DNA from: Porphyromonas bennonis DSM 23058 = JCM 16335
Lineage (GTDB): Bacteria; Bacteroidota; Bacteroidia; Bacteroidales; Porphyromonadaceae
Length of the DNA stretch: 56,533 nucleotides
Reading direction: 5' to 3'
Assembly (NCBI RefSeq): GCF_000375645.1
Contig: NZ_AQWR01000009.1
Coordinates: forward strand, 1 to 56,533
Part shown: one piece after another, positions 52,970-56,533 of the stretch
Layout: the number at the start of each line of letters is the position of its first letter
How positions within the stretch are numbered: the stretch's first letter is position 1
Translations under genes and position numbers: made by a program
The notes under the pieces: generated by a model
The model's database searches: none
What the model was told of the DNA's origin: nothing
What the model saw: only the letters and a program-made list of their open reading frames with translations

Positions 52970-55966
52970 TCAGAGGCGTGAGAGACGCTCATCGATCTGA
53001 TCAATGATGCCGTCCTGCTGGTCCTTATACCCGGATCGCAGGCTCTCGAGGTAGGTCTTGGCGGTACTCTTGTCGCCGAGACGGACGTAGCTGTCGCTCA
53101 GGAGGATGATGGCTCGTGCCAGCCAGTAGCGGCTGTCGGACTGTCCGCTCACCACCTTCTCCATCCGGTCGCGGACCGTCTGGAACTGTCCCTGCTCATA
53201 GAGCTCCTCCGCCGTCAGCACGCGGGCAGCCGTCGTCTGGACGGAGGCGGGCAGCTGAAGCACCGCCCGGGCGTAGAGCCACGCCATATCCTTCTTCCCC
53301 ACCTGGTCGTAGCGGACTGCGGCTGCCGTCATCACCTCAGACTTAGTCTGCGGCGTGAGGTCCCACTTACTCCGAGAGACGTCATCGGCAAGGGCAAGGA
53401 GGAAGTCGTAGCTCTGACTCTTCTGCGCGTGGATCGCTGCGGCGGAGATGTAACGGCTGCGGTCGACCTGAGTGCTGCTTTCGTTGGCGAGCCGGAGGGC
53501 GACCTCCGCTGCTCGGGCGGAGTTGTCGCTTCGCTCATAATTCTCCAGCAGGAGCAGCTGCACATCGTGGCTCATCGTGGGCTCCAGCTGCATCGCTGCG
53601 AGACGCTCGAGGATCGGTGTCGCCTCCCTGTGCCGCTTATTGGAGGAGAGGATCAGAGCCTTGCTGTAGAGAGCCTTGTCGAGATACGCCCCGGAGGGGA
53701 AGCGGGTCAGGTAGTCGTCCAGTGCCTTGATCGCCTCGGCGGGCTTGCCCTCGGAGACGATCTTGTCAGCCGCGAGGTAGGTCATCTCGTCCATCTCGCG
53801 GTCGGAGATCGCTCCGGTACCACCGATAGAGCGCACCAGGCTATTGTACTCATTCACTCGATTGAGCTGGATACTAAGTGCCTTAAGGTTCTCCAGTGCC
53901 GTCTTCGCCGCATCGGACTTGGGGTAACTCCGGATCACCGCCACATAGGCATCCGCTGCCTCGGAGAAGCTCTCCTCGCTCATATAGGTAAGAGCCTTCT
54001 GTACGGCGGCCGAGGGAGCAAGCTCGTGACGGGGATAATTCGTCACCACGCGGTCAAACGCCTGCCTGGCGAGGGACTGCCTATTGAGCATGCTGTAGGT
54101 CTGTCCCAGCTCGTAGAAGCCCTCTGCGAGGAGTGAGGAAGAGGGGAAGGTCTGCTGCATACGAGAGAGGAGACTGATCTTCCCCTCGTAGTCCTTCTGC
54201 AGCCCGAGGACGATGCCACGGTGGAGGAATCCGTAGTCGGACTCTGCTCCCCCGGTTCGCGCTGCCTGGTCGAAGTAGTCTGCTGCCTCGCTGAGTCGCC
54301 GCTCCTGTACAGAGATATCGCCGAGGCGATTGAGCACAGCGGTGCGCTCGTTGGTAGAAGGAGTGGTCTGCGATAGGTAGGTCTGGAAGGCGCTCTTGGC
54401 CTGGTCGTAATTCTTATTATTGAAGTAGGCGTACCCTAAGGTGTAGTAGGCCTGAGGATTGAGCCTAAGGCTCTCGGGGCGATTGTCGAGATAGGCACGG
54501 GTGTCGCTGATCGCCCCCTTGTAGTCTCCCTTGCGGTAGGCAGCCTCTCCGCGCCAGAGATAAGCCTCTGCGACGCTCTCCGGGTCCTCGTTCTTCCCGA
54601 TGATCCGCCCGTACTGCTCGGTTGCCTTACGGAGGTCCCCACCGGCGAGAGACTGATTGGCCTCTCCGAGTTTCACCTTCTCCCTTACCCTCCTCAGTTC
54701 GGGCGGGAGCGGGCTTATCGAGGAGATCTCTCGAAGCACGTCTGCCCGTTTGGGGTCATTGAGGAAAGCGTCACTCAGGTGGGTGATCACCTTGGACCGG
54801 TAGGCTCCGGTCGGGTAGCGTCTGAGGTAGGAGGCAAAGCGCTTCGTACCGGCACCGAGACGTCCCTGATGTGCGGCGTAGGCCGCGAGAGCGCCATTGA
54901 ACTGCGCGTCCTCAGTCAGCGGGGCGTAGACGTCGATCTCTGCTGCCCGGTCAAAGGACGAAAGGGCGCTGCTGCTCTTCCCACTGCTTAGATTCGTGAG
55001 CCCAAGGTAGTAGTGCGATAGCTGAGACATAAAGTCCGGCGTGCCGTCATCGACCCGGGTAAGGTAGCCAATCGCTTCTGTCTCGTGGCCCAATTCGTAG
55101 AGGTTTTTTCCGAGTACAAGCAGGTCGATCCGTCCCGGTTGCTCAGCCTGTCTCATGTACTGCCGCAGGTAGTCGGTGGAGAGATCGATCCGCCCGGTCA
55201 TCGCTGCGGCGAGGCCTGCGGTGTGGAGTAGCGAGTGACGGGCGCCACTCTCGGTGGCATCCCGCTTTAGCCCTCTCTGTGCCAGAGTCAGAGCTCCCTC
55301 AAAGTCCTCTTGTGAGAGACGCGACTCGGCCACATAGGCGAGCGCCTCAGTGCCGTAGGTGGTGTTGCTGTAAAGTCCTGAGAGGAGCTTCTCTCCCTCG
55401 CTCGCCCGATCCGACTTGAGGAGAAGATAACCGCCATAGAAGTCTGCGGCACTGTGGAAGTCTCGGGAGTAGGTGAGCGGGAGGAAGAGCTTGAGAGCCG
55501 CCTCCTCGGAGCCGGTCTTCATCAGCGAGTAGGCGTGGTAGTAGTCGATCGCCTGCGCTCTCTCCTCCGGCAGCGCCGTCACTTCGGTTCGGTCCAGCCA
55601 GTAGACCGCACTGGAGTAGTCGCCCCGCACGTAGTACCACTCGCCGAGACGGCTCTGGGCATAGGGCAGGAGAGCACTGTGGGGATGTTGCTCGATGAAG
55701 TGGAGGAGCCTGAGGTCCGCCTCCTCGGCACCCATGCTACTACGGGCTATGGCGTCGAGGTAAAGCGCCTCCTCGCCCATGATGGGCATACTCCAGGTCT
55801 CCTTGTATAGCGGTGCCAAGCTCTCTACGACTCCGGCGTACGCCTGTAGCGACATCGCCTGACGAGCATGAAGTAGGTGCGTCAGTGGTGAGATGGGCTC
55901 CTGCGCTACGACTGTGGCAGAGAGTCCCAGGGCTGCCGTGACTAAAGCTAGTATTTTCTTATCCAT
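52970..55966 (-). CDS. Large exported TPR protein
   Basis: After a signal peptide (MDKKILALVTAALGLSATVVA) the remaining 970 residues are almost entirely helical tetratricopeptide repeats, for example AYLWRGEAAYRKGDYKGAIS, AYFNNKNYDQAKSAFQTYLS and FDRVVTNYPRHELAPSA, in the style of the periplasmic BamD/YbgF group. It probably forms a long superhelical scaffold in the periplasm. It heads a two-gene operon with an outer-membrane barrel, so a role in assembly or operation of that barrel is reasonable but inferred. A -7 element lies 36 bp upstream. Confidence 0.87.
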   Translation of the reverse strand: MDKKILALVTAALGLSATVVAQEPISPLTHLLHARQAMSLQAYAGVVESLAPLYKETWSMPIMGEEALYLDAIARSSMGAEEADLRLLHFIEQHPHSALLPYAQSRLGEWYYVRGDYSSAVYWLDRTEVTALPEERAQAIDYYHAYSLMKTGSEEAALKLFLPLTYSRDFHSAADFYGGYLLLKSDRASEGEKLLSGLYSNTTYGTEALAYVAESRLSQEDFEGALTLAQRGLKRDATESGARHSLLHTAGLAAAMTGRIDLSTDYLRQYMRQAEQPGRIDLLVLGKNLYELGHETEAIGYLTRVDDGTPDFMSQLSHYYLGLTNLSSGKSSSALSSFDRAAEIDVYAPLTEDAQFNGALAAYAAHQGRLGAGTKRFASYLRRYPTGAYRSKVITHLSDAFLNDPKRADVLREISSISPLPPELRRVREKVKLGEANQSLAGGDLRKATEQYGRIIGKNEDPESVAEAYLWRGEAAYRKGDYKGAISDTRAYLDNRPESLRLNPQAYYTLGYAYFNNKNYDQAKSAFQTYLSQTTPSTNERTAVLNRLGDISVQERRLSEAADYFDQAARTGGAESDYGFLHRGIVLGLQKDYEGKISLLSRMQQTFPSSSLLAEGFYELGQTYSMLNRQSLARQAFDRVVTNYPRHELAPSAAVQKALTYMSEESFSEAADAYVAVIRSYPKSDAAKTALENLKALSIQLNRVNEYNSLVRSIGGTGAISDREMDEMTYLAADKIVSEGKPAEAIKALDDYLTRFPSGAYLDKALYSKALILSSNKRHREATPILERLAAMQLEPTMSHDVQLLLLENYERSDNSARAAEVALRLANESSTQVDRSRYISAAAIHAQKSQSYDFLLALADDVSRSKWDLTPQTKSEVMTAAAVRYDQVGKKDMAWLYARAVLQLPASVQTTAARVLTAEELYEQGQFQTVRDRMEKVVSGQSDSRYWLARAIILLSDSYVRLGDKSTAKTYLESLRSGYKDQQDGIIDQIDERLSRL

Positions 55967-56001
55967 AGGATCGGAAATGTCTTATGAGATGTAAGTTCTC
56001 T

Positions 56002-56009
56002 CAAAGGTA
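56002..56009 (-). promoter_or_regulatory. Putative -7 element of the TPR-barrel operon
   Basis: Minus-strand TACCTTTG matches TAnnTTTG, 36 bp before the TPR start codon. At the -33 position the sequence is close to but not equal to TTTG (CTTG). Confidence 0.6.
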
Positions 56010-56039
56010 CCAAATTCTGACAGAGCAAGTAGAATAGCA

Positions 56040-56460
56040 GCAGTTGTGACTAGGGGTGACGCATTTGAGCATTGGGGTAATCATATATACCTAGAGGGCT
56101 TATCCGTGAGGCACCCGAAGGGTGCTCGCTCCATAGGCATCGGTCACCCGCGAAGCGGTGACCGATGTACAAAGACCCTTCCCTACCCCCTCGACCCCTT
56201 GTGGGTCGCCGAGCAGAGCCTTCAGCGACCCCGCTAGGGTGTCGCACATACCAGTCAGTCAATCAGTGCGACACCCTAGCGGGGTCGCGGGATCGCTTGC
56301 AACGCCTGACCCCCGGGTCGTCGGGGCTACGCCCCTCGACCCGGGTCTAAAAAGCGGGCACCCCTGTCGGGGTGCTTCGTTCACCACTCTTTACAATGAG
56401 TTGAATGATTTCTGTACCACTCAAAAGCGTCAGCCCTGCAGTTGTGACCAGAGGTGACGG
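56040..56460. repeat. Palindrome-rich element flanked by a 22-bp imperfect direct repeat
   Basis: The direct repeat GCAGTTGTGAC-T-AG-G-GGTGACG (56040-56061) returns at 56438-56459 with two changes. Between the copies lie six inverted repeats: GCACCC/GGGTGC at 56111-56125, an 11-bp pair at 56138-56148/56157-56167, CGACCC/GGGTCG at 56192-56208, a perfect 22-bp pair at 56225-56246/56267-56288, CCCGGGTCG with CGACCCGGG enclosing GGGGC/GCCCC at 56312-56345, and GCACCCC/GGGGTGC at 56358-56375. There is no transposase frame. It resembles a composite of repetitive extragenic palindromes or a non-autonomous element. Confidence 0.8.
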
Positions 56461-56533
56461 TTTGGAAACCTAAAGTGCTGTTTGTCAGAATTCTTCGGGC
56501 GCTTAGCTAAACCACTTACATCCATCCCGGGCA

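Follow-up and report, generated by a model that had tools for sequence, protein, structure and literature searches.

REP and BIME elements, which occur with RAYT enzymes, are palindromes without terminal repeats or target duplications. IS30 and IS911 insert next to resident inverted repeats, and ISPg2 of Porphyromonas gingivalis is a member of the ISAs1 family. The P. gingivalis MITEs BrickBuilt, MITE239, MITE464/PgRS and MITE700 carry IS5-type termini (GAGACC..., ACGTCA...; PMC4596501, Table 2), and the portions of that paper covered here mention no fixed promoter distance for them. Among bacterial transposons, previous descriptions treat insertion at a fixed distance from promoters as something unusual, confined to a few Mutator-like elements. 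As described in the covered portions of PMC3942029, TnGBS, ISLre2 and the ISKra4 group have Mutator-like transposases and insert upstream of housekeeping promoters at a set distance, which for TnGBS is 15–17 bp upstream of the –35 of sigma-A promoters; the term ISAs1 has no occurrences there. A search of titles and abstract openings, with subscription journals mostly outside its scope, returned no report of promoter-distance targeting by ISAs1 elements, and the covered portions of PMC5771137, PMC10969869 and PMC9208149 mention no ISAs1 promoter targeting.

The window analysed here is the whole 56,533-nucleotide stretch of Porphyromonas bennonis DNA, taken from assembly G000 (2.02 Mb, 87 contigs). 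Close to its right end is a palindrome-rich element that we interpret, with a probability of about 0.8, as a MITE moved in trans by an ISAs1-family DDE transposase and inserted at a point set by promoters. The preferred promoter distance, common to the MITE and ISAs1 elements, is the new part of this account.

Anatomy and copies of the element

The element is a 388-bp unit (56051–56438, unstranded) whose termini are common to dispersed copies. It is bounded by 20-bp terminal inverted repeats, TAGGGGTGACGCATTTGAGC on the left (56051–56070, plus strand; the most frequent form starts CAGGGG) and its partner on the right (56419–56438, minus strand; ACTCAAAAGCGTCAGCCCTG on the plus strand). The outer ends CAGGGGTGACGCATTTGAGC are common to the copies and are inverted at the opposite end. 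The original prediction suggested a search for target duplications, and an exact 10-bp duplication, CAGTTGTGAC, flanks the window copy (56041–56050 and 56439–56448, both unstranded). Directly 3′ of the right duplication is CAGAGGTGACGGTTTGGA (56449–56466, plus strand), probably the degenerate terminus of an older element, with four mismatches to the MITE terminus. The prediction had also set the borders at a 22-bp direct repeat. This repeat exists, with 20 of 22 positions identical between 56040–56061 and 56438–56459 (83% in a 29-nt register), but its copies straddle the borders of the true element: the left copy combines target duplication and MITE end, the right copy combines the duplication with the degenerate, probably older end, and the repeat is no simple target duplication. 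Direct repeats of the integrase type were ruled out by the duplications alone.

A single copy without relatives, which the prediction had named as the outcome that would count against it, is not what is seen. BLAST of 56000–56533 against G000 gives 81 matches, a large share of which are fragments or matches of a palindrome to itself; merged by hand, they amount to about 40 places. When at most three mismatches are allowed, the 19-bp terminus is matched at 130 sites in G000 and a reversed-pattern control at none. With up to four mismatches, the stretches fetched contain 126 terminus sites, which resolve into 27 pairs and 72 unpaired termini; many of the latter are close to the end of a contig, as would fit copies at which the assembly breaks off. 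Exact duplications of 8–11 bp flank 10 of the 27 paired copies and measure 10 bp in seven of these. When left and right flanks of different copies are paired (702 pairings), the best result is one match of 5 bp. In Porphyromonas sp. HMSC065F10 (G005), exact duplications flank 3 of 35 paired copies (9, 10 and 11 bp), and the 1190 control pairings include two 10-bp matches, which are explained by neighbouring copies, one in the stack L192 and one in L189. No exact duplication of at least 8 bp was found for 17 of 27 pairs in G000, 32 of 35 in G005 and 12 of 12 in genome G002 (0 of 4 in the first set and 0 of 8 in later regions).

Only four ORFs of at least 60 aa overlap the MITE (61–99 aa), and by ORF size, rather than by protein-family search, the element is without a transposase gene. 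The right flank of the MITE is readable thanks to contig C6, with which the window shares 221 identical bases at its right end. Elsewhere in G000, the same MITE with its flank is found at two contig ends (L037 on C37 and L038 on C1), as an overlap or an assembly duplicate. The palindromes TAATACCGGTATTA and TAATACCGATATTAG occur in tandem or scattered between genes on C6 to the right of the window (L022/L177) and in flanks in L040, L042, L116 and L210; they are apparently a separate repeat family near MITE ends. The size of 388 bp (within the range of 50–1000 bp), high copy number, terminal inverted repeats, target duplication, lack of a transposase gene and insertion polymorphism are together those of a MITE. 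This identification is firm, very probably correct, and the kind of element is ordinary. The non-autonomous mobile element offered in the original prediction is thereby borne out by termini, target duplications, dispersed copies and a locus without the element.

The inverted repeats of the window element form eight pairs, some of them long-range. The most conspicuous is a perfect 23-bp inverted repeat with an 18-nt loop (56225–56288; arms 56225–56247 and 56266–56288), accompanied by a perfect 11-bp hairpin (56138–56167; arms 56138–56148 and 56157–56167) and an imperfect 14-bp hairpin (56312–56345; arms 56312–56325 and 56332–56345), all three unstranded. The dense packing of inverted repeats noticed originally, including a perfect one, is real and far above expectation: the longest perfect arm is 23 nt against at most 10 in 500 dinucleotide shuffles, and three perfect repeats with arms of at least 8 and loops of at most 30 were observed against a mean of 0.12 and a maximum of 2. 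A hairpin resembling a terminator, with CCGCTTTTT after it (56358–56375, minus strand; identified by consensus match only), was found once, against a mean of 0.4 in shuffles; when the right halves of 28 copies are aligned, 17 keep at least four T residues after it. In its minus-strand direction (56375–56358), it faces transcription arriving from the OmpA side. The MITE hairpins, lying between an upstream gene and a promoter, may insulate the promoter.

Of 61 genomes, three have matches to the element (E ≤0.001), and these belong to a single genus: G000 itself, G005 and, weakly, G006. At the orthologous G005 locus the left flank matches with 88% identity across 1041 bases, and homology ends at window position 56040 and restarts 61 bases later on the OmpA-gene side. 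The MITE is absent from this locus, which supplies part of the empty site that the original prediction called for, but most of the neighbouring older segment is absent too. The locus is an interspecies difference comprising two changes, not a perfect empty site. In G006 (L010, L012, L014, L016, L018, L065–L074) mainly the hairpin part matches (70–83%), and one end passes the terminus filter; these sequences are perhaps an older relative of the MITE. G002 has 57 termini belonging to a sister MITE family with the terminus AGGGGTTACGCATTAGA. Neither PF13808 nor an ISAs1 protein is matched in the G002 genome, and the mobiliser of the sister MITE may therefore have been lost.

The phage and plasmid collections searched gave no match to the element. 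The exact 17-bp terminus is present in three viral contigs, of which one (L075), partly examined, was judged by eye to be a chance match. Terminus matches in the genome collection comprise 33 stretches, 27 from Porphyromonas sp. HMSC065F10 and six from other organisms (three Sphingomonas/Sphingomonadales records, an Eggerthellales MAG, an uncultured bacterium and a Nitrospirae MAG), where rough arithmetic gives a chance expectation of about 15. The Sphingomonas/Sphingomonadales records (L223, L239 and L253) carry an exact 18-bp terminus, which may be due to chance or to a related IS.

Position of element ends relative to promoter boxes

The MITE lies between an OmpA-family gene and a gene for a TPR-repeat protein of 998 aa (52970–55966), both on the minus strand, and the presumed promoter of the TPR gene adjoins it. 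A –7 promoter box, TACCTTTG (56002–56009, minus strand), faces away from the MITE at 41 bp from its end and is kept in the MITE-free G005 locus. The box fits TAnnTTTG, which we take to be the Bacteroidota –7 motif. Within 150 bp of element ends, the outward motif occurs in 43 of 101 G000 flanks and 26 of 70 G005 flanks; the inward motif occurs in 4 and 1, respectively, and of two reversed control words one occurs in 3 flanks and the other in none, in either genome.

The distribution of offsets has a sharp peak at 41 bp, measured from the element end to the first base of the –7 box. After removal of duplicates, the exact box is found at 39–44 bp in 25 of 103 G000 MITE ends and 15 of 70 G005 ends. 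Among ISAs1-type ends it is found there in 11 of 50, at exactly 41 bp in ten and at 42 bp in one. The corresponding count for control ends of ISPg1, an IS5-family element in G023, is 0 of 62 (one-sided Fisher tests against this control: 2e-6 for G000, 3e-5 for G005 and 7e-5 for ISAs1). Random noncoding ends in the window have a box at 39–44 bp in 66 of 7318 trials, with the noncoding background defined by a rough mask of ORFs of at least 100 aa. In a motif-free check of all words of the form XXnnXXXX at offsets 0–99 in 173 flanks, TAnnTTTG at 41 bp was the commonest combination, with 19 occurrences. Across the G000, G005 and ISAs1 sets, 72 ends have an exact box at 25–65 bp, 28 of them at 41 bp and 50 at 39–44 bp. 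All end sets exclude flanks shorter than 100 bp and duplicate flanks, and both ends of an element count separately. The G005 ends come from 49 regions, out of 101 terminus matches. The ISAs1 set is a subset of matches (loci returned or fetched), includes solo ends and excludes any end that starts with an exact MITE terminus.

The majority of ends lack an exact box at 39–44 bp (78 of 103 in G000, 55 of 70 in G005 and 39 of 50 of ISAs1 type), as expected if one side of an element faces a promoter, but this is no proof of such an orientation. Counted by element, complete copies with an exact box at 25–65 bp on at least one side number 17 of 26 in G000 and 13 of 33 in G005, leaving 9 and 20 complete copies, respectively, with none on either side. 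The boxes are presumably working promoters, judged here by the –7 motif alone. A –33 box was not definable: TTG is most frequent at a position 22 bp upstream of the –7 box, but is present there in only 9 of the 72 ends. Minor peaks occur near 29–33, 51–53 and 59–62 bp, and the phasing of the other 22 ends (R 0.52 at 10.5 bp) is only suggestive of helical spacing. By eye, the flank letters of L059 (G005, 41 bp) and L176 (G000, 29 bp) seem to belong to the same promoter with the element at different positions; these are probably two separate insertions at one promoter.

In the G002 loci analysed first, 1 of 9 ends has a box at 39–44 bp. For new G002 regions the distance was set as a prediction beforehand, with test ends drawn from 20 regions (57 terminus matches in the genome): 4 of 29 ends have a box at 39–44 bp (Fisher test against the control, 0.009), in agreement with the share predicted for this interval, and the predicted mode at 41 bp was missed, with two boxes at 42 bp and one at 41 bp. 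When three terminus mismatches are allowed, the count is 5 of 30, with two each at 41 and 42 bp. This outcome is supportive for the 39–44 bp region, not for the exact base. The single usable end in G006 has a box at 41 bp. Seven ISAs1 loci from other Bacteroidales supply 11 flanks, of which one (L318, from another Bacteroidales family) has a box at exactly 41 bp and the rest do not.

ISAs1 elements and stacked insertions

In related genomes, a terminus nearly identical to that of the MITE bounds intact ISAs1 genes (NF033564 matches of 6e-83 and 2.7e-85; PF13808 and PF01609). The outer terminus CAGGG(C/G)TGACGCATT is common to the MITE and the transposase-bearing elements, whose ends read CAGGGCTGACGCATTATA in G003, G005 and G021 and contain ATTAAA in G011, G016 and G023. 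The 13 terminus-paired ISAs1 elements have an exact 10-bp duplication in six cases, a 10-bp duplication with one mismatch in three and none in four. On sequence grounds, we infer that an ISAs1-family enzyme moves the MITE in trans. In the 87-contig G000 assembly the ISAs1 matches are nine fragments, with ends that read CAGGG(C/G)TGACGTTTTTGG, unlike those of the MITE, and no intact matching transposase was seen among them. Eight of the nine are at contig ends, and intact G000 copies may therefore be unassembled. Two ISAs1 copies in G021 (L107 and L132) have a common left flank and different right flanks, which suggests recombination between copies.

The degenerate end beside the window MITE is one of several cases in which element ends lie back to back. 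Within 200 bp, such ends are separated in G000 by spacers of 10 bp (window), 10 bp (L040), 10 or 19 bp (L031, depending on the end chosen) and 41 bp, and in G005 by 10 (L192), 83, 144 and 198 bp. Further stacks have spacers of 10 bp (L087, G002) and 11 bp (L107, G021). The 10-bp spacer was spotted before it was counted, and a looser search (17 rows, spacers of 0–60 bp) also gives 3, 5, 9, 11, 14, 28 and larger values. Most second ends in that search are poor by eye, and L039 (spacer of 14 bp) appears to consist of two real ends. In four of the six cases near 10 bp the spacer contains the exact duplication of an adjacent element (window, L040, L107 and L192, not L031 or L087). An exact box is located at 41 bp on the free side in four of the six stacks: the window, L031, L107 and L040 with L122, the last being two contigs that both carry GGCAGATGAC and are assumed to flank one IS. 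Of the remaining stacks, L087 has a box at 33 bp and L192 has none. With a fixed promoter distance, the newer element is expected between the older element and the promoter; the relative ages would follow from this arrangement rather than from dating. The G005 locus L189 (contig C41, 526–1131) has a different organization: its two MITE-type copies, 144 bp apart, are bordered on the outside by a shared 10-bp duplication, TTTTGTCCTG, as though both had been moved together in a composite unit. Between them, a repeat of about 22 bp forms an array.

Mechanism, alternatives and comparison with known systems

In the mechanism that we propose, an ISAs1-family DDE transposase would cut and join the gene-less MITE in trans, and a 10-bp staggered cut would give rise to the 10-bp duplication. 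The insertion point would be set by the promoter, with the element end 41 bp (mostly 39–44 bp) from the first base of the outward TAnnTTTG. The duplicated 10 bp would thus be just upstream of the expected –33 region, corresponding to the upstream edge of bound RNA polymerase. The transposase might read the promoter via RNA polymerase, a contact that we offer as a proposal, or via promoter DNA shape. Where a promoter is already occupied, the next element to arrive would be inserted by a cut at those 10 bp again and would come to lie between the older element and the promoter, with 10 bp on either side of it; such re-cutting would lead to the stack with a 10-bp spacer seen in this window. There is an even chance, in our estimate, that Bacteroidota ISAs1 transposases contact promoter-bound RNA polymerase (or the DNA bent by it) and make their 10-bp cut on one face of the helix, where the polymerase ends upstream, with the result that promoters become repeat targets, MITE and IS copies stack with 10-bp spacers, and hairpin insulators are seeded in transcription units.

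The alternative closest to this mechanism is that an ISAs1-type MITE inserts at random and selection keeps the copies that lie between genes and leave the promoter whole. MITEs are normally intergenic, according to the covered portion of PMC10969869, and some of the signal can come from selection against insertions that break promoters. What selection predicts is a lower limit of distance followed by a broad tail, whereas the observed boxes are concentrated at exactly 41 bp (28 of 72) and at 39–44 bp (50 of 72), the ISAs1-type ends with a box at 39–44 bp fall almost wholly on a single base (ten at 41 bp, one at 42 bp), and none of the 62 ends of ISPg1, an IS from one genome of the same family, has a box in this interval. 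Later selection alone would not be expected to make the peak. We consider random insertion followed by selection unlikely, and targeting quite probably the better explanation than selection alone.

The two other explanations offered in the original prediction concern the palindromes themselves. A conserved structured RNA, or a regulatory hairpin array kept for host function, would account for the strong folding (–209 against –139 in shuffles, sd 6.1, n=200; z –11.5) and for the right-half stem pairs, many of which are nearly invariant across 28 aligned copies. Against this, two-sided compensatory change affects only 2 of 45 predicted pairs, Rfam contains no family that the element matches at gathering score, and the matches are confined to 3 of 61 genomes in one genus, with a G005 locus that does without the element. 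The folding appears to come along with the element, the weak covariation giving no support to conservation of an RNA function, and we regard a host RNA as very improbable. Nested REP/BIME palindromes moved by a RAYT enzyme of the IS200/IS605 type would likewise be dense, GC-rich and located between genes; the defined transposon-type termini and 10-bp duplications of the copies, together with the matching ends on ISAs1 DDE elements, make this explanation hardly credible.

Targeted insertion of an ISAs1-type MITE has several implications. MITE ends may mark promoters, given that the –7 box is often 41 bp from an end, and stacking on a shared promoter target is a simple account of tandem elements one duplication apart. 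That a further DDE family inserts at a fixed distance, precise almost to the base, and at the different promoter type of Bacteroidota suggests a convergent way of sparing genes while settling beside active promoters.

Among known systems, the ISAs1 family is the closest to the window element, with the same terminus (CAGGG(C/G)TGACGC...), 10-bp duplication and box offset of 41 bp. The window element differs in being without a transposase gene and in its inner termini (ATTTGAGC as opposed to ATTATA/ATTAAA). The definition of REP/BIME elements does not apply here because termini and duplications are present. IS30 and IS911 resemble the stacks in placing elements beside element ends, but here the spacer is mostly one 10-bp duplication, which a shared promoter target can explain. 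The P. gingivalis MITEs, as far as they are described in the covered portions of PMC4596501, are likewise intergenic MITEs of Porphyromonas; the termini of the window MITE are not of the IS5 type, unlike those of BrickBuilt and the others, and it is not a member of these described MITEs. TnGBS, ISLre2 and the ISKra4 group, as presented in the covered portions of PMC3942029, share with the elements described here a fixed promoter distance, where our promoters are judged by the –7 motif alone. They combine Mutator-like transposases with sigma-A promoters, whereas the present elements combine ISAs1 (NF033564) with Bacteroidota –7 boxes, and thus appear similar in working without being members of those groups.
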